From: Candidatus Bathyarchaeota archaeon
GTDB lineage: Archaea; Thermoproteota; Bathyarchaeia; 40CM-2-53-6
Length of the DNA stretch: 32,437 bases
Direction of reading: 5' to 3'
NCBI GenBank assembly: GCA_005881615.1
Contig: VBBR01000099.1
Span: 1-32,437, forward strand
The position numbers were made by a program, and so were the translations under genes. The notes beneath the pieces were generated by a model that was not told where the DNA came from, made no database searches, and saw nothing but the letters and a program-made list of their open reading frames with translations. Numbering within the stretch: the stretch's first letter is position 1; each line of letters begins with the position of its first letter. Shown here piece after piece: positions 3,382-12,525 of this stretch.

Positions 3382-4899
3382 CTACTTCCTCGTCCGTCTC
3401 ACAGATTTCGCTTTTGGCTTTCGTTGCTTCACGTATATGGTGAAGCTACCGAGTATAATCGTTGACACGAACCCAACGGCAACATATGACACCGACGAAT
3501 CAACGACATTTACTCTTACAAATACGTTGAGACTTACTTGTCCGTTGAATGCGGTCAATGCCACATACCGTTGCCCTAGCGTCGCGTTCCAAGCTGCAGA
3601 AACCGTGATGCTCGTTGAGTACTGGTTGCTTGCGGGTACAATGTCCATTTGAGAGGAGCTGTAGATTTGTGGAGGATAATAAAGCGGTGAGTCCTGAGTT
3701 ACTGCTGAAGAATTGAGTGAGAATTCTCCTTGGTCCATTGAGTTGACAACGACCGGTACTCGTTGATAGCCACCCCTTTGAACAACTACGTCGGATGGCA
3801 CGCTATTGACACTGATTGCGACGGGTACACTAGCGTTCACGTAGCCTATCTGGCCCAGTGCCCAGGCGACAAACCATACGAGGTTGTTCGGCCCAGGCAT
3901 CGCCCACCACATTAGCGGAAGAGAACTCCCTGGGACTTGGTACTCGGTGAGAACGCCAGTCGACGGATCATAACGAGCAACCCGTCCAGCATTGTGTTCG
4001 GAGAACCAGACTGTATTCTTATTCTTCGGGTCAACAAAAATGGCGTTAGGAAGACCATAGACACAGTTGTCGTGACAGTAACCAATCGGAAACACCTTCC
4101 ACTGCGTCGTCTGAGGACTGAACACACCAAACTGGTTGGTGCCATGATCCGTGAACCAAACGTTCCCTGAAGCATCAACTGCCACCTGCTCGGGGAAGGC
4201 CAAGTTAACGGAGGAAGGTGGGGAAAACTCGCTAAACGATGGAGAAACTCCGAGAATGAGACGGCCGATCTTTTTCGACCCGCCCTCGGCGAACCAGATT
4301 GCGTTACCGGGAGGAGCAATGGCAAGTCCTTGAGCTATCGCTCCGCTAGTTGGGACTGAATAGGTCTGGTTCGAGTTGCTCAAGGGGTCGTACACCGCGA
4401 TGCTACTCGAACCCGATGCTCCCACCATCGACATCCAAATCTTACCCTGAGGATCAGCAGCGAGGTATTGGATGCTTTGGTTTGGAAAGGTAATTGCTTT
4501 TGTCTCGCTCGCCTTGCTTGTATCATAAAATGCCAGTGTCGAGTTTTCAGTAAACCAAACCTTGCCAGAGGGGTTTGATGGATCGGCGAGAATCGAGCTG
4601 ACTATGACATTTGTTAGATTAAGGACTCCTTTCGAGGTTCCATCGATGAAGAACTCTCTGATCTGCGATCTGGGAGGGGTGGCTATGCCGGCAACCCAAA
4701 CTGTCGAACTGGTTGGATAGATGAGCCAAGGGCTCGGGCTCGAATCGGGGACCTTCGGCAGAAGAGTCACATATGGCTGAGCGCTGGTTTGAAGAGCAAC
4801 TGTTGGGCCGACCGTGTGAAATGGCACGCTTGGCATTATATCGAATGAGGAGAAAACACAGAGAATCAGGAATGGTCCAATCACGTATGATAGTCGCAT
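3382..4899 (-). CDS. Exported Vgb/streptogramin-lyase-like beta-propeller with C-terminal anchor
   Basis: This 505-residue protein has an N-terminal hydrophobic signal (MRLSYVIGPFLILCVFSS). Its body holds repeated blades with the signature D..G.vWFTe, for example SGKVWFTENST, GNAIWFAEGGSKKIG, GNVWFTDHGTNQFG and NTVWFSEHNAGRVARYDP, typical of Vgb-like six- to seven-bladed propellers. A beta-sandwich-like region follows, then one transmembrane helix (about 470-490) and a basic tail (KQRKPKAKSVRRTRK). This predicts an extracytoplasmic propeller with its C-terminus in the cytoplasm. Many archaeal members lack demonstrated lyase activity, so substrate and reaction are unknown. It lies 22 nt downstream of the cupredoxin gene, which suggests co-transcription. 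Confidence 0.8.
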   Translation of the reverse strand: MRLSYVIGPFLILCVFSSFDIMPSVPFHTVGPTVALQTSAQPYVTLLPKVPDSSPSPWLIYPTSSTVWVAGIATPPRSQIREFFIDGTSKGVLNLTNVIVSSILADPSNPSGKVWFTENSTLAFYDTSKASETKAITFPNQSIQYLAADPQGKIWMSMVGASGSSSIAVYDPLSNSNQTYSVPTSGAIAQGLAIAPPGNAIWFAEGGSKKIGRLILGVSPSFSEFSPPSSVNLAFPEQVAVDASGNVWFTDHGTNQFGVFSPQTTQWKVFPIGYCHDNCVYGLPNAIFVDPKNKNTVWFSEHNAGRVARYDPSTGVLTEYQVPGSSLPLMWWAMPGPNNLVWFVAWALGQIGYVNASVPVAISVNSVPSDVVVQRGGYQRVPVVVNSMDQGEFSLNSSAVTQDSPLYYPPQIYSSSQMDIVPASNQYSTSITVSAAWNATLGQRYVALTAFNGQVSLNVFVRVNVVDSSVSYVAVGFVSTIILGSFTIYVKQRKPKAKSVRRTRK

Positions 4900-4921: not shown

Positions 4922-5344
4922 TTAGGCTACATTCAGAAGACCATTTTGCATTAAGTAGTGAACTGTGCACTTGCTGGTGCAGTAAATCCTGAACTGTCCA
5001 ATCCTTGTTGCTTGAAATTGCAATTTCTGGTGGTCCCCCCCGACAAGCTCCAAACCAACGTTGGAATAGGAGGCCACCGCGAACCCGTGAGCTTGAGTAT
5101 CGTTATTGATCACAGTGAAAACCACTGTGTCACAACGCTGAACCGAAATAACTGGCCAAGGCCCACTTTGTGATCCACTCCCATTATAACCAGTCAAATC
5201 TATGATAATGGTGAAAGCGCGAATTGTTCCTGTCACGCTGGAACAGGGAGACGGGGGAGGGCTGAGAACAACCGCGAACACTCCTCCTGCTCCGAGAGAC
5301 ACGGTAACGAGCGCGACTATGATTATCTCGCTGGTTCGCAACAA
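4922..5344 (-). CDS. Membrane-anchored CuA-like cupredoxin, shortened loop
   Basis: This 140-residue protein starts at TTG 5344 (a second in-frame TTG is at 5341). An N-terminal hydrophobic helix (about 7-28) anchors it outside the membrane. The rest is one cupredoxin domain resembling the CuA domain of cytochrome oxidase subunit II: a His in DTQAHGFAV (H86), then the ligand loop YCTSKCTVHYLM (C122, C126, H129, M132). Classical CuA loops are C-x3-C-x3-H-x2-M; here it is C-x3-C-x2-H-x2-M. Two further cysteines (C34, C71) could form a disulfide. The same shortened loop occurs in the paralogue at 11983-12525, which argues against a sequencing error. An electron-transfer or copper-carrier role is inferred. 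Confidence 0.8.
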   Translation of the reverse strand: MLRTSEIIIVALVTVSLGAGGVFAVVLSPPPSPCSSVTGTIRAFTIIIDLTGYNGSGSQSGPWPVISVQRCDTVVFTVINNDTQAHGFAVASYSNVGLELVGGDHQKLQFQATRIGQFRIYCTSKCTVHYLMQNGLLNVA

Positions 5345-5533
5345 TTACACCAAGGTCTCGTTCAGACGCAACTAGCCGGCCAGAAATCCACATAGACCAC
5401 GCTAATAGAGCCATCGTCAATAGGTTCCACATGGTTGGCGTTGGTCGAGACAGTCACAGAAGATGGCCTTGCACCCTTCGGTGCCGGACGGGTCAGATGG
5501 AAGGCTCGTCCTAACCTTAGTCTTTTTCTTCGG

Positions 5534-6124
5534 CTAACTGTATGTTATTACTATGTCATCTTGCACGCAGGGCTGGACAACGCAGAGAGCTGTTGAGGGT
5601 GCGGCGTTATGAGGGAAGACGTGTTTGTCAAACTTTGTGTCGGGACTGCCATTTACTGTCATCGTTAGACTATGTGTTCCTCCGACCGGAGCCTTGTCGT
5701 CAAAGATCTGTGTTGAGTTGAATATGGCTCTTGTAGGGTTGTTTTCCCGATGTCCCCACAAGAGGAACCAGTCCCCCAGAGTGTAGTCTCTGTTTTGATC
5801 CGTCTCGATATGGAGTACACCTGTCGCATCATGGGTATGAATGGGCTGTTGGCACCCGTTGTCAATTGTCCCTGAGGGCGGAAAGGGAAAGTTTGCTCCG
5901 TTTATTGTGATCGTCAGATTAGGATGAGAGTGGTAGATGGAGCCGGTTACACAATGGCTCAGGTAGTCCGGTAGAGGTACAAGGTTCGGGGTCCCGTGAA
6001 AGGTCAGTACAGCGACCACCACTATTGCGATAAGAGCGATTAAAATGATGAGAGTGGTTAGCGTTCTCTGTCTCCGTTTCTTCTTGACGTCCCCGAGAAT
6101 CTTCTGCTTTCGGGTTTGAGACAT
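5534..6124 (-). CDS. Membrane-anchored extracytoplasmic protein with HTHD motif
   Basis: I take ATG 6124 as the start, giving 196 residues. The open frame reaches 6355, but that extension overlaps the tRNA-like region and looks non-coding. A basic N-terminus (KKKRRQR) precedes one transmembrane helix (about 22-45), and the rest should lie outside. The conserved core is CVTGSIYHSHPNLTI..., then CQQPIHTHDATGVLHIE, then YTLGDWFLLWG, with a cysteine pair near the end (LCVVQPC). The clustered histidines suggest metal binding, and I recall similar HTHD-type proteins from archaea and cyanobacteria. No enzymatic function is known to me. It lies 189 nt upstream of the cupredoxin gene on the same strand. 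Confidence 0.7.
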   Translation of the reverse strand: MSQTRKQKILGDVKKKRRQRTLTTLIILIALIAIVVVAVLTFHGTPNLVPLPDYLSHCVTGSIYHSHPNLTITINGANFPFPPSGTIDNGCQQPIHTHDATGVLHIETDQNRDYTLGDWFLLWGHRENNPTRAIFNSTQIFDDKAPVGGTHSLTMTVNGSPDTKFDKHVFPHNAAPSTALCVVQPCVQDDIVITYS

Positions 6125-6270
6125 CGAGATAACCCTATGAGGGTGATAGGTGCATTCGAGCAATAATATCTTTCCCGCGGACATCGAATAGAGAGCAGCA
6201 GGCCCTAAGCCATCTGTCGAGAGCGCGAGCCTCAAGGCATATTTGAGAAGGCTGACGAGGGATTTTTCCT

Positions 6271-6448
6271 GCGGGGGTACCAGAGTCAGGTCAAATATCT
6301 GACCAAATGGGCGGGTCGCGCCTAGCACGCGCGCGCTACACTCAAGACCCAACACGGCAAAGGCATCGATACGATTGATGCCTTGGCAAAACGCGGGTGT
6401 GCTATCCCGTGGCGTAGGCCTTCGTGGGTTCGAATCCCACCCCCCGCA
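6271..6448 (+). tRNA. tRNA-Leu-like gene with interrupted body (introns or decay)
   Basis: GCGGGGG at 6271-6277 pairs perfectly with CCCCCGC at 6441-6447, followed by A at 6448 and an encoded CCA. The T-arm is GTGGG/CCCAC at 6424-6440, and the variable arm tggcgtaggcct is typical of archaeal tRNA-Leu. The 5' part (6271-6293) also resembles tRNA-Leu through the D-loop (GAGTCAGGTCAAA). The total is 178 nt against about 85 expected, so roughly 90 nt are extra. CTCAAGA at 6341-6347 matches a tRNA-Leu(CAA) anticodon loop. A strong hairpin (AAGGCATCGAT/ATTGATGCCTT, 6359-6384) lies in the 3' intervening part. I could not draw convincing bulge-helix-bulge sites for every junction, so intron boundaries are unresolved and a decayed gene is possible. 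Confidence 0.5.
6407..6448 (+). repeat. Left attachment repeat (tRNA-Leu 3' end)
   Basis: These 42 nt (ccgtggcgtagg ... ccgca) recur at 9407-9449 with one substitution and one extra C, in the same orientation. This copy retains a perfect T-stem and acceptor stem, so it is the host tRNA end of the integrated element. Confidence 0.85.
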
Positions 6449-6452
6449 CCAT

Positions 6453-7253
6453 GAGCGTTACCCACTGCAGGCCAAAGCTCTAGAGCATGCATTCTGGCTG
6501 AAGAGAGAAGGATACCGAGAAAGTACCATGGTCTCTAGGGTGAAACTCCTAGCAGGATTGGCCAAGAAGGCCCATCTTCTAGATCCAGAATCTGTGAAAG
6601 AGGCCATAGCCACGCTAGATGTCACAGAGGCCAGGAAAGAGAACATAGTATGCGTTTACGGAGGCTTCCGCAGGCAGAACAACGTGCCATTCAATCCGCC
6701 AAGGTATCACAGGGTAGAGCGCCTGCCCTTCATTCCTCCAGAGTCTGAAGTAGACCAGTTGAAAGCAGGTCTTGGAGGCAAGACAACAACGTTTCTCCAG
6801 ACGATCAAGGAGACCGCAGGCCCGCCGGGAAAAGTCTGGAGGCTTAGATGGCTAGACCTAGACTTGGCGGGGCAGACCATCACGATAGCCCCTGAGAAGA
6901 ACAGCAACCCCAGACAGTTCAGAGTCTCAACAAAACTGGTCTCTATGATGGGCTAGACTTAGCTAGGAAACTGGAAAGTCCCAGGATGGCCAAGATCGGC
7001 TTCAAGACCCTCCGGCGCTGGAAGGCCTCGACTCTCTACCATCAGACCCGAGACATCTTACTCGTAATGAGAACTTTGGGACACAAGGATATTCGAAACA
7101 CGCTGGTCTACACTCATCTTTTTGGACCCCAGAGACGATGAGTACGTATGCAAAACAGCCAAGTCCCTAGCTGAGGCAGGTTCTTTGATAGAGGCAGGAT
7201 TCGAATACGTGACCGAGCTAGATGGTCTGAAACTGTTTCGTAAGAGGAGGTAG
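6453..7253 (+). pseudogene. Tyrosine recombinase (integrase), inactivated
   Basis: The frame opens beside the tRNA without an in-frame ATG, GTG or TTG near its 5' end. It reads ERYPLQAKALEHAFWLKREG... through an archaeal core-binding domain (LKNSNPRQFR-like) to a TAG at 6954-6956. Coding similarity resumes in another frame from about 6970 (KTLRRWKASTLYHQT...LGHKDIRNTLVYTHL) to a stop at 7139-7141. It resumes again in a third frame (DEYVCKTAKSLAEAG...LFRKRR) to 7253. So there are at least two frameshifts. Catalytic residues are also lost: the first Arg region reads KETAGPPGK instead of an ET-G-MR-PGE-like motif, and the expected HTLRHWK is KTLRRWK. The LGHK and final Tyr (VYTH) remain. Confidence 0.85.
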
Positions 7254-7256
7254 GGA

Positions 7257-7778
7257 TTGCTGGGCGAGAAGTATCTTGGCGGCCTGATGAGTGCCTCGTT
7301 GAAGAAGGGAGAGTGGTATGGAGGATGGGCCGGCTACGGCCTGTATGCCACTGACCAAAGATTGATCGGAATCAGGAATCGAAAATACAGTCTCAGGTGG
7401 CTGGGCGGGATAACTCTCGGTGGACTAGTTGCGGGGGTCATTGAATTCGTGATATTTGGAGGATTATCGGTAGGAATTCTTGTAGGTGCTTGCATAGGCC
7501 TTATGATCGGAATCACCGCTGAAATAGCTTCGACAAGGCCAGCACCCCAGACCATTCCAGACTTAGAGTTGAGAAAGGACTTCCAAGTATACAGATTTGA
7601 AATCTCCCTGATCGAGATGAAGAAGCCGGGCTTGAGATTTGGTCATCTAAATATTGTTCTCAAATCTGGTGAGAATATCAAGATTCAGATTGGGTATAGG
7701 AACGTGTTTCAAGCTGTTAGGAGTTTGGTGTTGACATTTGCCGACTTTGAACCAAGCGTAGACTTTCGTGAGGTTTAG
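7257..7778 (+). CDS. PH-like membrane protein of unknown function
   Basis: This 173-residue protein starts at TTG 7257, supported by a strong AGGAGGT (7245-7251) that overlaps the end of the integrase remnant. Residues about 20-45 (GYGLYATDQRLIGIRNRKYSLRW) and 107-165 look like the two halves of a small beta-rich PH-like fold, as in archaeal proteins with the pattern G.Y.TdqRliG. A hydrophobic hairpin of two transmembrane segments (about 49-92) separates them. I do not know its function. It appears intact despite lying in a decayed element. Confidence 0.65.
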   Translation: MLGEKYLGGLMSASLKKGEWYGGWAGYGLYATDQRLIGIRNRKYSLRWLGGITLGGLVAGVIEFVIFGGLSVGILVGACIGLMIGITAEIASTRPAPQTIPDLELRKDFQVYRFEISLIEMKKPGLRFGHLNIVLKSGENIKIQIGYRNVFQAVRSLVLTFADFEPSVDFREV

Positions 7779-7909
7779 ATTTCCGATGGTGATTGTTCAG
7801 AAAACGATCAAAGGAGTCTCGTGTGGAAGAAGATGAGGAGAAGACATTCTTCTATGATCTAGCTTGAGCATTTGTTCTTGCGGCTTTGTGGTAGAAGCTA
7901 GTAGTTGGG

Positions 7910-8884
7910 TCAGCACGTAAAGGTCTGTGTCATGTCCGTTCCCGTAGGAACGAATGCGCTTGGTGTGGCCGAACAGGATCCGTAACCATTCGTTGTCCTG
8001 TAGAATATTGAGACGGTGTAGGTCTTACCTGGGACTATGTACAGCTGGTAGTGATTGACCACGCTCCCGTCCTGGAGTGTCAGGCTTTCAACCACCGAGG
8101 ATAAACTTGGTACATCTGGGTTCCAGTATGAGGTATCAAACATAATCCCGATTGGTACGGACCCAAATGCTGCACTCGAATCTGCCTCCCCATGGAGGAA
8201 AGTCAACAGTGGACCTAGAGTTTTCCTAATGAGTACAATGCTTTCATCATAATTCTCTGAGCTTCCTGACCCCGGTTGTTTTTGGAAGGACATTATCCAG
8301 AGGCCGTTACTAGGAACGGTTACCTGAGCTTGGTACGAATGTGCCCATGGAGATGACCAAGTCGTGGGTATGCTAGAATAGTTTCCATAGTAGACACAGT
8401 TGCAGGTGCGGAGCAGATAGTACTGGCTCGTGTTGAGAAGGGAGAGCCTCGTTGTTACTCCAAACTCGACCCCTGTGAATGACACATTGAGGGTTGCGGT
8501 TACAGTATCGGAGGGGACTGTAAAGTTGATGTATGCTACTGCCCCATTTCCGACTAGTAGAATCTGTCCCTCACTGACGAGGGTCACTTGTTTCTGGGCA
8601 AGAGAGTTTAGCTGGACCATCTCCGTCTGAAGATCTTGAACCTGATGGTTAAGCTGAGAATTGGTAGCTTCGAGTTGGCCTACCTGGCTTGACAGGCTCT
8701 TGATCTGATCTGTGAGGTTGGTCGCTTGCGAGTTGGCTTTAGAAACTTGACTAGTAAGATTGGTAATTTGATTGGACATGTCAATTGTTCTTAGCTGATA
8801 GTAGTAGGTGATCCCAGCAGAGGTTGCTCCAGTTATGATCAGTAGCGAAACCAAGGCCATTTTGTAAACAGCAGCAGTTATCAT
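7910..8884 (-). CDS. Signal-anchored coiled-coil surface protein
   Basis: This 324-residue protein starts at ATG 8884. An N-terminal hydrophobic helix (about 9-28) anchors it. It is followed by a heptad-rich coiled coil (about 36-98) made of repeated Thr/Ser/Asn-Leu-Gln units such as QITNLTSQVSKANSQ and DQIKSLSSQVGQLEA. The C-terminal 220 residues are beta-rich with many NxS/T sequons and two cysteine pairs (TCNCVYY; GYGSCSATPS...FTC), as in secreted archaeal surface proteins. No family function is recognised. It may be an oligomeric stalk protein. Confidence 0.7.
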   Translation of the reverse strand: MITAAVYKMALVSLLIITGATSAGITYYYQLRTIDMSNQITNLTSQVSKANSQATNLTDQIKSLSSQVGQLEATNSQLNHQVQDLQTEMVQLNSLAQKQVTLVSEGQILLVGNGAVAYINFTVPSDTVTATLNVSFTGVEFGVTTRLSLLNTSQYYLLRTCNCVYYGNYSSIPTTWSSPWAHSYQAQVTVPSNGLWIMSFQKQPGSGSSENYDESIVLIRKTLGPLLTFLHGEADSSAAFGSVPIGIMFDTSYWNPDVPSLSSVVESLTLQDGSVVNHYQLYIVPGKTYTVSIFYRTTNGYGSCSATPSAFVPTGTDMTQTFTC

Positions 8885-9101
8885 GAGAAGGAACGGGCCT
8901 TCCCAGCCGTTTATTGGTTGCTGAGCCTGACCAATGGTCCGGCATCGATCAGAGTATCAGAATCCTAGAAAGTCATTCCAACTCTGGAACCGCCCCGAAC
9001 GGGTTTCGAGCCATAGAGGAATGGAATTCTGGGGTTTCTCAGCCTCCTAGACAATGTATTCCTTCAATGTTAGGAAAATTTTCGTATATAGGAAAGAAAT
9101 C

Positions 9102-9281
9102 CTAACTGTTCGTATCCCCTTGAAAACGTCTCTTAAGCCAGTCAGAAAACACAGGGTCGGCGATTCTGTACACGCCGGTCATTGGCTTCTCCATGACGCC
9201 ATAGTTCACCAACATTCTAAGTTCCTTTGATATGTTCTGGATTTGCTTTCTTGCTTCTCTTGCTATCTCGCTTGCCTTGAA
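9102..9281 (-). pseudogene. C-terminal fragment of archaeal AAA ATPase
   Basis: About 60 codons encode FKASEIAREARKQIQNISKEL...YGVMEKPMTGVYRIADPVFSDWLKRRF. This is the winged-helix tail that ends archaeal STAND/AAA ATPases of the DUF234 type, where 'G.YrI.DPvf..Wl..' is characteristic. The P-loop domain is absent: a stop codon lies just upstream in frame, and no ATPase sequence follows before the attachment repeat at 9407. It is a deletion remnant rather than a functional small protein. Confidence 0.7.
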
Positions 9282-9406
9282 CAAGGATTAGGCGACAATA
9301 GTTCCACGTGGCTCATGTCCCAATATACTCCCTACCACCTACTGGCTGGTATGACAGCCAAAGAAGAGCCTAAGTCCGAATCCATCAATTCCAGTGAGCT
9401 TGCCTG

Positions 9407-9449
9407 CCGTGGCGTAGGCCTTCGTGGGTTCGAATTCCACCCCCCCGCA
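9407..9449 (+). repeat. Right attachment repeat (tRNA-Leu 3' end copy)
   Basis: This is a 43-nt copy of the tRNA-Leu 3' end. It differs from the left copy by C-to-T in the T-stem (cgaattccac) and by one extra C in the acceptor run. No tRNA 5' half precedes it, so it is the far-end att copy, now drifting. The two copies start exactly 3000 nt apart. Confidence 0.85.
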
Positions 9450-9493
9450 TCACTGATCGGGTAGTTATTGGAAGACATCTTTCCAAGGAGAGA

Positions 9494-10360
9494 TTAAGGA
9501 GGTCCAGCGAGATGAGTCAAAGTGTCGGGGGCAGGGCTCGCCTTGACTTCTCTCCAAGTAACGATCATTACGGGAATGATCACACCTATCATAAACGCTA
9601 GAACTATCAGATTCCCAAAATCCAGCGGGATGGTGTTTTGTATGCCAGTTCGGAAGACTGCTCCCGCGATGATGAATATTATTCCACCGTAGAATAAGCT
9701 GCGTGCTCCTGCTCTTGTGCCGAAGAGCTGGACTCGTTCTGGACCCCACCTCTTTGCAATTTGGAGGACACCTCCAAACACCGAACCGATTGCAAGCAAC
9801 ACGATCAGCGTGCCGAACCCGAATGCTGCGCCAGGCGCGAACCCGAGATACGCAGCTGGCATTGCTGGAACAGCGACCAAATAAATGAATGTAGTGAATA
9901 GCCCCGTGTCGACACCGAACCCGGCGATGAACCCGTGGATCACGCACCAATGTGTAGGGACCTGTCTCGAGACTCCTTTCTCGTCATAATGCGTTCCACC
10001 ACGAGTACGCAGGAATCGGGCCAGTGGATGCCAAGATGGCAACTTCCCGCGCAGTATCAAGTATCCCGCGATAGTCATGGCGATTCCGACAGCTACGTAA
10101 ACGAGCGCGTTCAACCCTTCATCGAAGGCGAGATAACTAGCGAGTGCAAAGTAGACGAGCTGAGCCATGATCGAGCGTTGTAGTGTAAAGGCCGAGGCGA
10201 AGAATATGCCCGAGAGCATTCCCCCTCGCCCGGTAGCTGAGCCCACGGAGTAGCTGAAAGTGATAGGCCACGTGTGCTCGTCAGGAATAACTCCGTGCAG
10301 CATTCCAAGCCCGAGAGAACCTAGCAGAAGAACGATCCATTCTGGGAGAAGAGTGGTCAC
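9494..10360 (-). CDS. NicO/HoxN-like nickel/cobalt permease
   Basis: This 288-residue polytopic protein has about six to seven hydrophobic segments. The first helix contains HGVIPDEHTW (H22, D27, E28, H29), which recalls the H-x4-D-H metal signature in the first helices of NiCoT/NicO transporters. A second charged/His cytoplasmic loop (HPLARFLRTRGGTHYDEKG) precedes HWCVIHGFIAGFGVDTG, another His-rich helix start. Assignment as a nickel or cobalt transporter rests on these motifs and on the divergent NikR-like regulator 65 nt away. TauE/UreH-type membrane proteins are an alternative. Direction of transport is not evident. Confidence 0.65.
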   Translation of the reverse strand: MTTLLPEWIVLLLGSLGLGMLHGVIPDEHTWPITFSYSVGSATGRGGMLSGIFFASAFTLQRSIMAQLVYFALASYLAFDEGLNALVYVAVGIAMTIAGYLILRGKLPSWHPLARFLRTRGGTHYDEKGVSRQVPTHWCVIHGFIAGFGVDTGLFTTFIYLVAVPAMPAAYLGFAPGAAFGFGTLIVLLAIGSVFGGVLQIAKRWGPERVQLFGTRAGARSLFYGGIIFIIAGAVFRTGIQNTIPLDFGNLIVLAFMIGVIIPVMIVTWREVKASPAPDTLTHLAGPP

Positions 10361-10382
10361 AGCACGCGAGGTGGAGATGGAA

Positions 10383-10410
10383 TTATTAAGTATTTTCTGG
10401 ATTTTAATAA
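10383..10410. promoter_or_regulatory. Candidate NikR operator overlapping divergent TATA boxes
   Basis: TTATTAA (10383-10389) and TTAATAA (10404-10410) form a perfect 7-bp inverted repeat with a 14-bp spacer, centre to centre 21 bp. NikR tetramers bind two half-sites about two helical turns apart (E. coli: GTATGA-N16-TCATAC). Each arm is TATA-like and lies about 16-30 nt from the start codon of the gene it faces, so binding would block both promoters. The operator function is inference. Confidence 0.5.
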
Positions 10411-10425
10411 TGTTGATATAAGGGA

Positions 10426-10845
10426 ATGGCCGAAAGTTATTACACGTACGCGGTTAATCAAATGCCCATCGTAAGCGTCTCCCTACCCAACGAGCTGGTC
10501 GATTCTATGACTGCGATTCAGGAATCCCAAGGATTCGCAGGAAGATCCGATGTGGTGAGAACCGCAATCCGCCTTCTGCTCTCTGACTCAAAGGAGAAGG
10601 CGTCACTCACCGGTCGAGTAGCTGCAATTCTAGTAGTTACACATGATGAATCGAATGAAGAGCCAATCACCCGGTTGAAACATGCTTACGATGATATCGT
10701 TCGAACACACATTCACAACAAAATGGGCCAAAACAACTGTTTCGAGCTCTTTCTCTTAGAAGGAGAAGGGAGGGAGGTCGCTTCCATGACTAGTGCATTC
10801 CAGAAGGAGAAGAAGCTGAGAAGCGTTAGGCTACTCGTCGTCTAA
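10426..10845 (+). CDS. nikR: NikR-like ribbon-helix-helix nickel-responsive regulator
   Basis: The frame gives 139 residues from ATG 10426. An internal ATG at 10462 (MPIVSVSLPNELVD) matches the usual family start and may be the true one. The N-terminal ribbon-helix-helix (VSVSLPNELVDSMTAI...GRSDVVRTAIRLLL) binds DNA. The C-terminal ACT-like domain carries THIHNKMGQNNCFELFLLEG, parallel to the NikR nickel site (H87, H89, C95 in E. coli). Here H86, H95, H97 and C105 are candidate ligands, but the His-x-His to Cys spacing is two residues longer than in E. coli. It is divergent from the permease and shares its promoter region. Confidence 0.8.
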   Translation: MAESYYTYAVNQMPIVSVSLPNELVDSMTAIQESQGFAGRSDVVRTAIRLLLSDSKEKASLTGRVAAILVVTHDESNEEPITRLKHAYDDIVRTHIHNKMGQNNCFELFLLEGEGREVASMTSAFQKEKKLRSVRLLVV

Positions 10846-10988
10846 GTGAGAATTAAAGAACCGTTCCCAGCTGATCTGCGAGCCAGGGGTTTCCAGGTGC
10901 TAGACGATCGCGAGACACTTCCATCTATTTGGGTTGATAGCCGCAGTCGCATGACTCATCGGCGGGAGAATAGGAGCAACGCTCGATC

Positions 10989-11795
10989 TTATCCTGAGTG
11001 GAAGATAGCCGCGAAATAAATCGCTAGTAGGCCGAGCGCGATCAGGATAGCTAATCTGATTGATTCCTTCGAGCTTGTTGGTTGAGTGTTATCGAATAGT
11101 GGCCCTGCGAGTCTGATGAGAGCGTAGACCGAGGTGCCCGTGCCCAAAGCGTAGAAAAAGCTGCTATCATAAGTCAGGTAGAAACCTGTCGCGGCACCGA
11201 GGAGTGATGGAATTACGAATGTTATGCTCAACAGGAGAAGGTCTCTGAGCCTGCCGGTAGCTCCCATAGCATGCTCTTTTGCATATACGCAGTAGCAGGC
11301 GCCTATCATCATGGGTTCAAGCGCTTTGTGCAAAATGTACGCGACTCCACCGGGGTATCCTCCAAACGCGTCGAGCAACGACGTACTCGATGTCAAAGCA
11401 GCCGTCCCGCCAAACGCCGCCCCCTCGCCTAGCCCGTGGATCCCTACCGCTACCGCCACAAGCCACGGTATCGTCGATCCGTACTTTCCGATTGCTAGCT
11501 GGGGCGAGAGGAGGTTTCGACTCCGGTCAATTATGAAGAAGAGTAGCAAACCAATTACAAAGAGCCCAGAGAGTGCAAGCTGACCGCCGCCTCCGGAAAA
11601 GCCGGAGTTGACATCCAGCCCTGCCGCTCCACCGATAGTATCAACGAAAAACCATAGAAAGACCCCGATTGCAAAAGCAGCCAGATACTTTGCTTTCAAG
11701 AAATTTCCGGCCACGACTATTATTAGTAGTCCTACGAAAGCAGGAATCAGTGTAACTGCAGTCCAGGGGAGGAAACTGTCAGCAAATCCTAACAT
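10989..11795 (-). CDS. ZIP-family-like metal transporter
   Basis: This 268-residue membrane protein has about eight hydrophobic segments. The two ZIP signatures are visible: HGLGEGAAFG (H120, E124) in the fourth-helix position and HKALEPMMIG (H156, E160) in the fifth, which together form the binuclear metal site in ZIP proteins. The Gly-rich loop GFSGGGGQ precedes helix 3. ZIP proteins move Zn, Fe or related divalent metals into the cytoplasm. Substrate here is not determined. Position beside the NikR-like and NicO-like genes and a copper protein supports a metal role. Confidence 0.75.
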   Translation of the reverse strand: MLGFADSFLPWTAVTLIPAFVGLLIIVVAGNFLKAKYLAAFAIGVFLWFFVDTIGGAAGLDVNSGFSGGGGQLALSGLFVIGLLLFFIIDRSRNLLSPQLAIGKYGSTIPWLVAVAVGIHGLGEGAAFGGTAALTSSTSLLDAFGGYPGGVAYILHKALEPMMIGACYCVYAKEHAMGATGRLRDLLLLSITFVIPSLLGAATGFYLTYDSSFFYALGTGTSVYALIRLAGPLFDNTQPTSSKESIRLAILIALGLLAIYFAAIFHSG

Positions 11796-11982
11796 GAAGA
11801 ACCTTTCTGAGGGTGAAAGTTTCTAAGAGTATTGGCTCAAGTTACGAACAGGATCTCGTTCGGACATCCCAGACGGTCAGATGTGCACCACGGCCTTTTG
11901 TTCGCAGTTTGAGCCATAACTCTCTTGATCAGACGGTCCTATGGCATCTCTAGTCCTAAATTCACCCTGCTGCTAGGGTTCC

Positions 11983-12525
11983 ATGCAACCTACCTTGCCT
12001 CTCAATTCCGAAACCAACAACGATGCGGAGACCGCTCCGGGATCATGGAAGACGAGTTTCCACAGAGCAAGGCGTTCAAGATTAGTTTTGTCGATCTCGG
12101 TCATAGTAATTGTTCTTACAGGTTTTTTCACTGCCGCTTACACGTTTCATTTGTTCGGGCTTGGGATGGTTAGCTGCGCAAGTCATCCCACCAACGCTCC
12201 GAACTCGGCTTTTTTCGTCGTTGTAATGGCTGACGAGGGGATGAATATCGGATTCAACGGCAGCAAGTTCCATAGCGGCTTCTGGCCTATAATGAATGTT
12301 ACAGTGGGAACCAACGTCATAATTCACGTCGTGAACAACGACACGGTCGAGCCCCATGGGTTTGCAATAACCACTTACTTCAACAAGGGTCTCATACTGC
12401 GTCCTGGCGAATGCAGTGACGTGATGTTCAACGCCAGCCAGTTGGGCTCGTTTCGAGTCTACTGCTTCATCGAGTGTTCAATCCATGTGCTAATGCAGAG
12501 CGGAGAAGTCAACGTGAACCCTTGA
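11983..12525 (+). CDS. Second CuA-like cupredoxin with shortened loop
   Basis: This 180-residue protein has a 30-residue cytoplasmic lead, one transmembrane helix (about 33-58) and an external cupredoxin domain. Putative copper ligands are H125 in DTVEPHGFAITTY, then C161, C165, H168 and M171 in YCFIECSIHVLM. The spacing is C-x3-C-x2-H-x2-M, as in the protein at 4922-5344, and it also has the CxxEC glutamate typical of CuA loops. The two proteins align over the whole domain (GxWPVI/GFWPIM, NNDT..HGFA, QSGEVNV/QNGLLNV). It starts at ATG 11983, and no oxidase subunit I gene lies nearby. A function in copper handling or electron transfer is inferred. Confidence 0.8.
   Translation: MQPTLPLNSETNNDAETAPGSWKTSFHRARRSRLVLSISVIVIVLTGFFTAAYTFHLFGLGMVSCASHPTNAPNSAFFVVVMADEGMNIGFNGSKFHSGFWPIMNVTVGTNVIIHVVNNDTVEPHGFAITTYFNKGLILRPGECSDVMFNASQLGSFRVYCFIECSIHVLMQSGEVNVNP

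Follow-up and report, generated by a model that had tools for sequence, protein, structure and literature searches.

The step from the two-copper CuA site to the one-copper blue site has previously been studied with engineered chimeras. To our knowledge the spacing of the CuA ligand loop, C-x3-C-x3-H-x2-M, is usually taken as invariant, and the 30 loops of cytochrome oxidase subunit II (COX2) read in this work agree with it. The mononuclear loop of the amicyanin type reads Cys-x2-His-x2-Met. Here we describe two cupredoxins, P0001 and P0002, encoded in a stretch of 32,437 nucleotides (contig VBBR01000099.1 of a Candidatus Bathyarchaeota archaeon; the whole stretch is called the window below), whose CuA-like loops read C-x3-C-x2-H-x2-M. 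In the reading that we favour, and that we regard as about evenly poised, they are extracytoplasmic copper electron carriers tethered to the membrane, and form part of a distinct archaeal family that derives from CuA and most likely has a two-copper site. The computed basis of this reading comprises the predicted fold class, the ligand set, the loop type, the separation from classical CuA on a tree, and the gene settings. The proteins and their ligands lie in the window as follows.

4922..5344, minus strand: P0001, 140 residues with a TTG start; membrane-anchored cupredoxin with a short CuA-like loop; P1 subfamily; extra Cys pair C34/C71.
4949..4981, minus strand: ligand loop of P0001, C122-x3-C126-x2-H129-x2-M132 (loop letters CTSKCTVHYLM).
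5087-5089, minus strand: upstream His of P0001, H86.
11983..12525, plus strand: P0002, 180 residues; membrane-anchored cupredoxin with a short CuA-like loop; P2 subfamily; extra Cys pair C65/C144.
12463..12495, plus strand: ligand loop of P0002, C161-x3-C165-x2-H168-x2-M171 (loop letters CFIECSIHVLM).
12355-12357, plus strand: upstream His of P0002, H125.

Both proteins align with CuA domains, the upstream His and the Cys-Cys-His-Met loop included, and the ligands and the short spacing were read directly in both sequences, as the initial annotation of this DNA had stated. They share 45% identity over 89 amino acids. Each is a single domain with one N-terminal hydrophobic stretch and neither is an oxidase or nitrous oxide (N2O) reductase polypeptide, which bears out their description as stand-alone, membrane-anchored domains. 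The further statement that they are not part of an oxidase stands for P0001 and P0002, and we reject both as oxidase subunits; it does not extend to a third subfamily (see below), which adjoins COX1.

No Pfam family matched P0001 or P0002 above cut-off. Single-sequence searches of solved structures returned COX2 CuA first for P0001 (5.5e-4), and nitrosocyanin (0.04) followed by COX2 (0.067) for P0002. All NCBIfam matches scored far below the cut-offs that the models set for whole proteins. P0001 (2.6e-10) and P0002 (9.2e-10) both matched best to the Sec-dependent N2O reductase model, at its CuA end; nitrosocyanin and other N2O-reductase models followed, and COX2 models came last (0.059 and 0.027). 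When 39 members were scanned at E≤0.001, the N2O reductase model was matched by 39, nitrosocyanin by 38 and CoxB by 3. A profile search of solved structures likewise placed the N-terminal domain of the three-domain nitrite reductase, N2O-reductase CuA and nitrosocyanin before COX2 CuA. The AlphaFold model of the P0001 domain (predicted local distance difference test score, pLDDT, 95.7; predicted template modelling score, pTM, 0.86) is a predicted cupredoxin beta-sandwich, for which Foldseek gave the Thermus CuA domain as best by E-value (6ptt, 8.5e-9; 2cua, 1.2e-8). Among its best fold matches was also 5u7n, a CuA scaffold with an amicyanin loop; nitrosocyanin and N2O reductase came after. The likeness to COX2 CuA on which the initial annotation relied is therefore real in single-sequence and fold searches, but profile methods rank N2O-reductase CuA, nitrosocyanin and the nitrite-reductase N-terminal domain higher. 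CuA domains are the nearest relatives, and whether N2O reductase or COX2 is the closest depends on the method.

With the CuA domain of N2O reductase (NosZ) the family has in common the cupredoxin fold and a ligand set of two His, two Cys and one Met; it differs in being stand-alone and membrane-anchored and in having C-x2-H in place of C-x3-H. COX2 CuA has the same ligand set, but it is the weaker match in profile searches, its loop is of the C-x3-C-x3-H-x2-M type, and the family lies outside the oxidase. Nitrosocyanin (red copper) is likewise a small single-domain cupredoxin, with one Cys, a Glu and a second loop His where the family has His, the Cys pair and Met. The amicyanin-type type-1 loop, and CuA scaffolds carrying it, share Cys-x2-His-x2-Met with the family but are without the second Cys four residues upstream.

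To avoid circularity, the spacing was surveyed with a profile from which the loop had been removed, and loops were read afterwards. At 80 bits or more, a cut picked after the scores had been seen, 42 domains were found: 39 with Cys-x2-His, three that have lost the loop ligands and none with the classical loop. The 39 comprise C-x3-C-x2-H-x2-M (32), C-x4-C-x2-H-x2-M (4) and C-x3-C-x2-H-x3-M (3). Below the cut lay 40 domains, none of them short, 17 classical and 23 without a Cys-Cys-His-Met match. The profile had been trained on 31 short-loop rows of alignment A2, so these rows score high by construction; what is informative is the spacing read outside the profile, the tree, and 30 rows from a second archaeal group. 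This group, obtained from 400 genomes of the class to which genome G534 belongs (38 hits in 29 genomes), is called the Thaumarchaeota side, its loci L218 and L225 having loop regions identical to those of L145 and L105, which are labelled Thaumarchaeota/Gagatemarchaeum. All 30 loops read there (30 of the 38 hits) are C-x3-C-x2-H-x2-M, and these rows score 65.7 to 108.5 bits, every one above the best classical row (50.5). As a control, all 30 COX2 loops read in the phylum (30 of 44 hits) are C-x3-C-x3-H-x2-M, the hits coming from a profile that itself contains the classical loop. All five ligands are invariant in 31 of 31 aligned ligand-bearing members, the ligand-less paralogues being left out; in alignment A3, built from a pattern that fixes the spacing, invariance arises by construction.

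On a loop-excluded tree, short-loop and ligand-less rows split from classical rows with support of 98/91; this careful run has few columns, a bootstrap that had not settled, and leaves out L102, a long-branched row with two domains. With L102 included a quick tree was not clean, the short group taking 3 changes, and for all rows the approximately unbiased test does not reject a short-loop clade (p 0.859). On the careful tree the spacing of the first Cys changes three times.

The profile search and the loop tabulation against COX2 that had been suggested thus give a family with C-x2-H beside 30 of 30 classical COX2 loops, and the classical spacing, far from being the rule among homologues, is absent from the 39 ligand-bearing domains that score at least 80 bits and from the 30 read on the Thaumarchaeota side. 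Because the short spacing recurs in two archaeal lineages and many genomes, sequencing error and chance are rejected as its source, and the view that it is a conserved trait is upheld by the 39 of 42 loop-blind domains, the 30 of 30 and the tree. The notion of one deleted residue needs refinement: C-x2-H is fixed, but the first-Cys and Met spacings vary, with 4 of the 39 reading C-x4-C-x2-H-x2-M and 3 C-x3-C-x2-H-x3-M. In the former (L034:14015-14434, L037:4026-4451, L052:3581-4036 and L055:2512-2976) the second Cys is shifted and the distance from first Cys to His is still classical. The fixed unit of the family is Cys-x2-His, and the first Cys is labile.

This lability bears on how many copper ions the site would hold. 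In a mononuclear, type-1-like site the upstream His, one Cys, the loop His and Met would hold copper, the other Cys being a non-ligand or tuning residue. C-x2-H-x2-M is the amicyanin loop, and the threefold change in first-Cys spacing points the same way. The second loop Cys fits the general type-1 pattern of one ligand Cys and C-x(2-4)-H-x(2-4)-M, with the first loop Cys present in addition. Type-1 loops put into a CuA scaffold are reported to give mononuclear sites (PMC7480511), and such a chimera is the 5u7n found above. A non-ligand Cys should vary, but all ligand-bearing members read (39 + 30) have both loop Cys, the extra one included, and the two are lost jointly: the loop ligands disappear together in 3 of the 42 loop-blind domains and none retains a lone loop Cys. 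For this reason a mononuclear site, while a serious contender, appears rather unlikely, and the joint retention or loss of the two loop Cys leads us to favour a two-copper, CuA-derived site.

Further cysteines lie outside the loop. Counted over the 115 residues that precede the loop, 37 of the 38 short-loop domains with ligands in the window's family of genomes contain two additional Cys, no more and no fewer; the 38th (L036:4145) has neither. One of the two is near the N-terminus, and the other is at -51/-52, -17 or -44, numbered from the first loop Cys and depending on subfamily. From these positions we infer a probable structural disulfide with a moving partner, which would leave the loop pair free for metal. 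A disulfide between the two loop Cys is not favoured, given that the extra pair could account for one.

Four ligand-less paralogues were found, G000:C110:1104-1511 (L064), L034:2548-3099, L037:14468-14974 and L033:10197-10451, the first being a third paralogue in the window's own genome, beside P0001 and P0002. All four are without the two Cys, the His and the Met of the loop, and three keep the upstream His; to judge by sequence, they are cupredoxin folds retained minus the copper loop.

In the window's family of genomes the position of the Cys pair goes with the gene setting, neighbours being counted up to 1.5 kb away on gene calls taken as greedy open reading frames (41 of 42 rows mapped, L156 being without a map). 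The -51 type, that of P0001, has a Vgb-like propeller on the same strand in 17 of 19 cases. The -17 type, that of P0002, is adjoined by a ZIP-like membrane protein of about 268 residues in 12 of 12, five of them also with a same-strand propeller. The -44 type, which is the third subfamily, adjoins COX1 in 6 of 6 and has a plastocyanin-like gene as well in 6 of 6 (called by eye; the one checked has no Pfam match). COX2 in the two -44-type clusters read (L060, L062) keeps the classical loop. In the window the two partner genes are:

3382..4899, minus strand: Vgb-lyase-like beta-propeller, directly downstream of P0001 with 22 bases between (Pfam PF24684, 1.3e-21).
10989..11795, minus strand: divergent ZIP-fold transporter, transcribed away from P0002; beside all 12 P2 genes.

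The propeller has, by eye, a signal-like N-terminal and a helix-like C-terminal end. N2O reductase consists of a propeller and a CuA domain, and it is the CuA end of that enzyme that P0001 matches best in NCBIfam, so that P0001 and its neighbour might be taken for a split N2O-reductase-like enzyme. The propeller matches Vgb lyase and not NosZ, however, and where the CuZ site needs seven His only H252 and H302 reach at least 85% conservation (25 sequences; after length limits the conservation counts covered 25 propeller genes out of 32 and 23 ZIP-like genes out of 24). A neighbour without the CuZ histidines makes this reading highly improbable, and it was rejected.

The ZIP-like protein has no Pfam family at E≤1, and the Pfam Zip profile matches 0 of 15 members. 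Its AlphaFold model (pLDDT 86.8) suggests a ZIP fold, the top eight Foldseek hits all being BbZIP (best 3.8e-4, template modelling score, TM, about 0.5). H120-x3-E124 and H156-x3-E160 are invariant in 15 of 15 members, and two H-x3-E motifs in neighbouring helices are what we take to be the ZIP signature.

A cupredoxin hit lies within 1 kb of 15 of 19 ZIP-like hits in the window's family (39 of 60 cupredoxin hits used, 4 ligand-less and 17 weak ones being dropped; that of G020 is classical) and of 23 of 28 on the Thaumarchaeota side (all 38 hits used; pieces in G752 joined, taking 29 ZIP-like rows to 28). On the latter side 22 of the 23 pairs are on the same strand, and the cupredoxin loop was read in all but 3. 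Among the 400 genomes the cupredoxin is present in 29 and the ZIP-like gene in 26, and 23 carry the two together (Fisher 8e-29, with related genomes treated as independent).

Such pairing would also suit copper carriers that bind Cu(I) outside the cell and pass it on, either to the ZIP importer or for the assembly of the oxidase, carrying no electrons; the third subfamily beside COX1 fits this as well. In Nitrososphaera viennensis, pairs of multicopper-oxidase and zinc/iron permease genes have been proposed to serve copper uptake (PMC7785015), which lends the idea a parallel. A full CuA ligand set in a cupredoxin fold is better suited to electron transfer, however, and the P0001 type is paired with a propeller and no transporter. 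We consider pure copper carriage distinctly unlikely.

In the favoured reading, that of an electron carrier, the five conserved side chains (two Cys, two His and Met) would hold copper, most likely as a two-copper, CuA-derived cluster with the loop tightened after the second Cys, and would pass single electrons outside the cell membrane. The wiring would follow the gene neighbours. P0001-type proteins would serve the adjacent Vgb-like beta-propeller, P0002-type proteins might support the neighbouring ZIP importer through metal redox or hand-over, and proteins of the third type may feed a terminal oxidase whose own COX2 retains classical CuA. The fusion of a propeller to a plastocyanin-like domain in one homologue and, in the window's genome, a plastocyanin-family gene near the oxidase with classical CuA (both described below) speak for this reading. 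One may tentatively go further and propose a third natural CuA-like class, in which a tightened C-x2-H two-copper cluster with a movable first Cys forms an electron or metal-redox module for ZIP importer, propeller and oxidase; if true, this would be a plug-in module in uncultured aerobic archaea. A large natural family sits here between the two-copper CuA and the one-copper blue loop types. Its members are open to direct expression and measurement, as a testable electron carrier and metal-uptake partner of uncultured archaea.

Several observations weigh against a two-copper electron carrier. The first-Cys spacing (x3 or x4) and the His-Met spacing (x2 or x3) vary while every COX2 control read is invariant, which is odd for a rigid two-copper diamond, and Cys-x2-His-x2-Met is an amicyanin-type mononuclear loop too. 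The P0001 model fits the Thermus CuA domain loosely (TM about 0.66, root-mean-square deviation (rmsd) about 6.7); its superposition on N2O-reductase chains is closer (rmsd 2.3-2.8), and it matches many other cupredoxins as well. The association with a metal importer could point to trafficking of a metal and not to electron transfer. One of the 15 ZIP-paired cupredoxins in the window's family, L065 (G020), has a classical loop, so the pairing does not require the short one. By eye, L109, L128 and L143 on the Thaumarchaeota side are without the extra Cys pair, and the disulfide reading is therefore not general. Finally, the genomes compared are related, and the setting counts are not independent events.

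Within the window's family, a profile search located the cupredoxin in 20 of 21 genomes; among the rest of the order it was located in 0 of 17. The genomes compared are mostly incomplete bins. A pattern scan of 84,980 species genomes gives a lower bound, its pattern recovering 25 of 39 known members. It returned 47 stretches, of which 36 hold a cupredoxin domain (37 domains), two (L130, L136) run off the fetched stretch and nine are other things. Among the last, L112, L117 and L127 carry a Sphingomonadales protein with an FCAGVCTMHxNM string, by sequence no cupredoxin. The 36 are all in archaeal-named records except L125, labelled bacterium, whose loop region is that of L212 on the Thaumarchaeota side. 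The bacterium labels of L125 and L130 look wrong; both carry the archaeal gene set.

In the portions of the open-licence literature available to us on cupredoxins, CuA, nitrosocyanin, these archaea and ZIP, we found no description of a short CuA-like loop, and a search of open-licence literature for the loop motif strings matched only a fungal transcription factor. The Gagatemarchaeaceae are reported as aerobic respirers (PMC10640624). The window's own genome encodes a COX2 with classical CuA, a fused COX1-COX3, a COX15/CtaA-family gene and, near the oxidase, a plastocyanin-family gene.

Three further genes of the window lie near the two cupredoxins:

5534..6355, minus strand: His-rich-motif protein (H-x-H...H-x-E), upstream of P0001; same-strand neighbour of 10 of 19 P1 genes.
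10426-10845: NikR-like regulator (Pfam NikR_C, 1.1e-12), between the ZIP-like gene and the hydrophobic protein.
9494-10360: hydrophobic protein with an HGVIPDEH motif; no Pfam match above cut-off.

The His-rich-motif protein has no Pfam family at E≤1, and its H173, H175, H182 and E184 are invariant in 13 of 13 sequences. The genes for the NikR-like regulator, the ZIP-like protein and the HGVIPDEH protein recur as a trio in several relatives, hinting at nickel or other metal control. In a Thaumarchaeota-labelled record, a frame of 1135 residues (L119:2309-5713) fuses a plastocyanin-like domain to Vgb-like propeller repeats, and it adjoins a short-loop cupredoxin and a ZIP-like gene.

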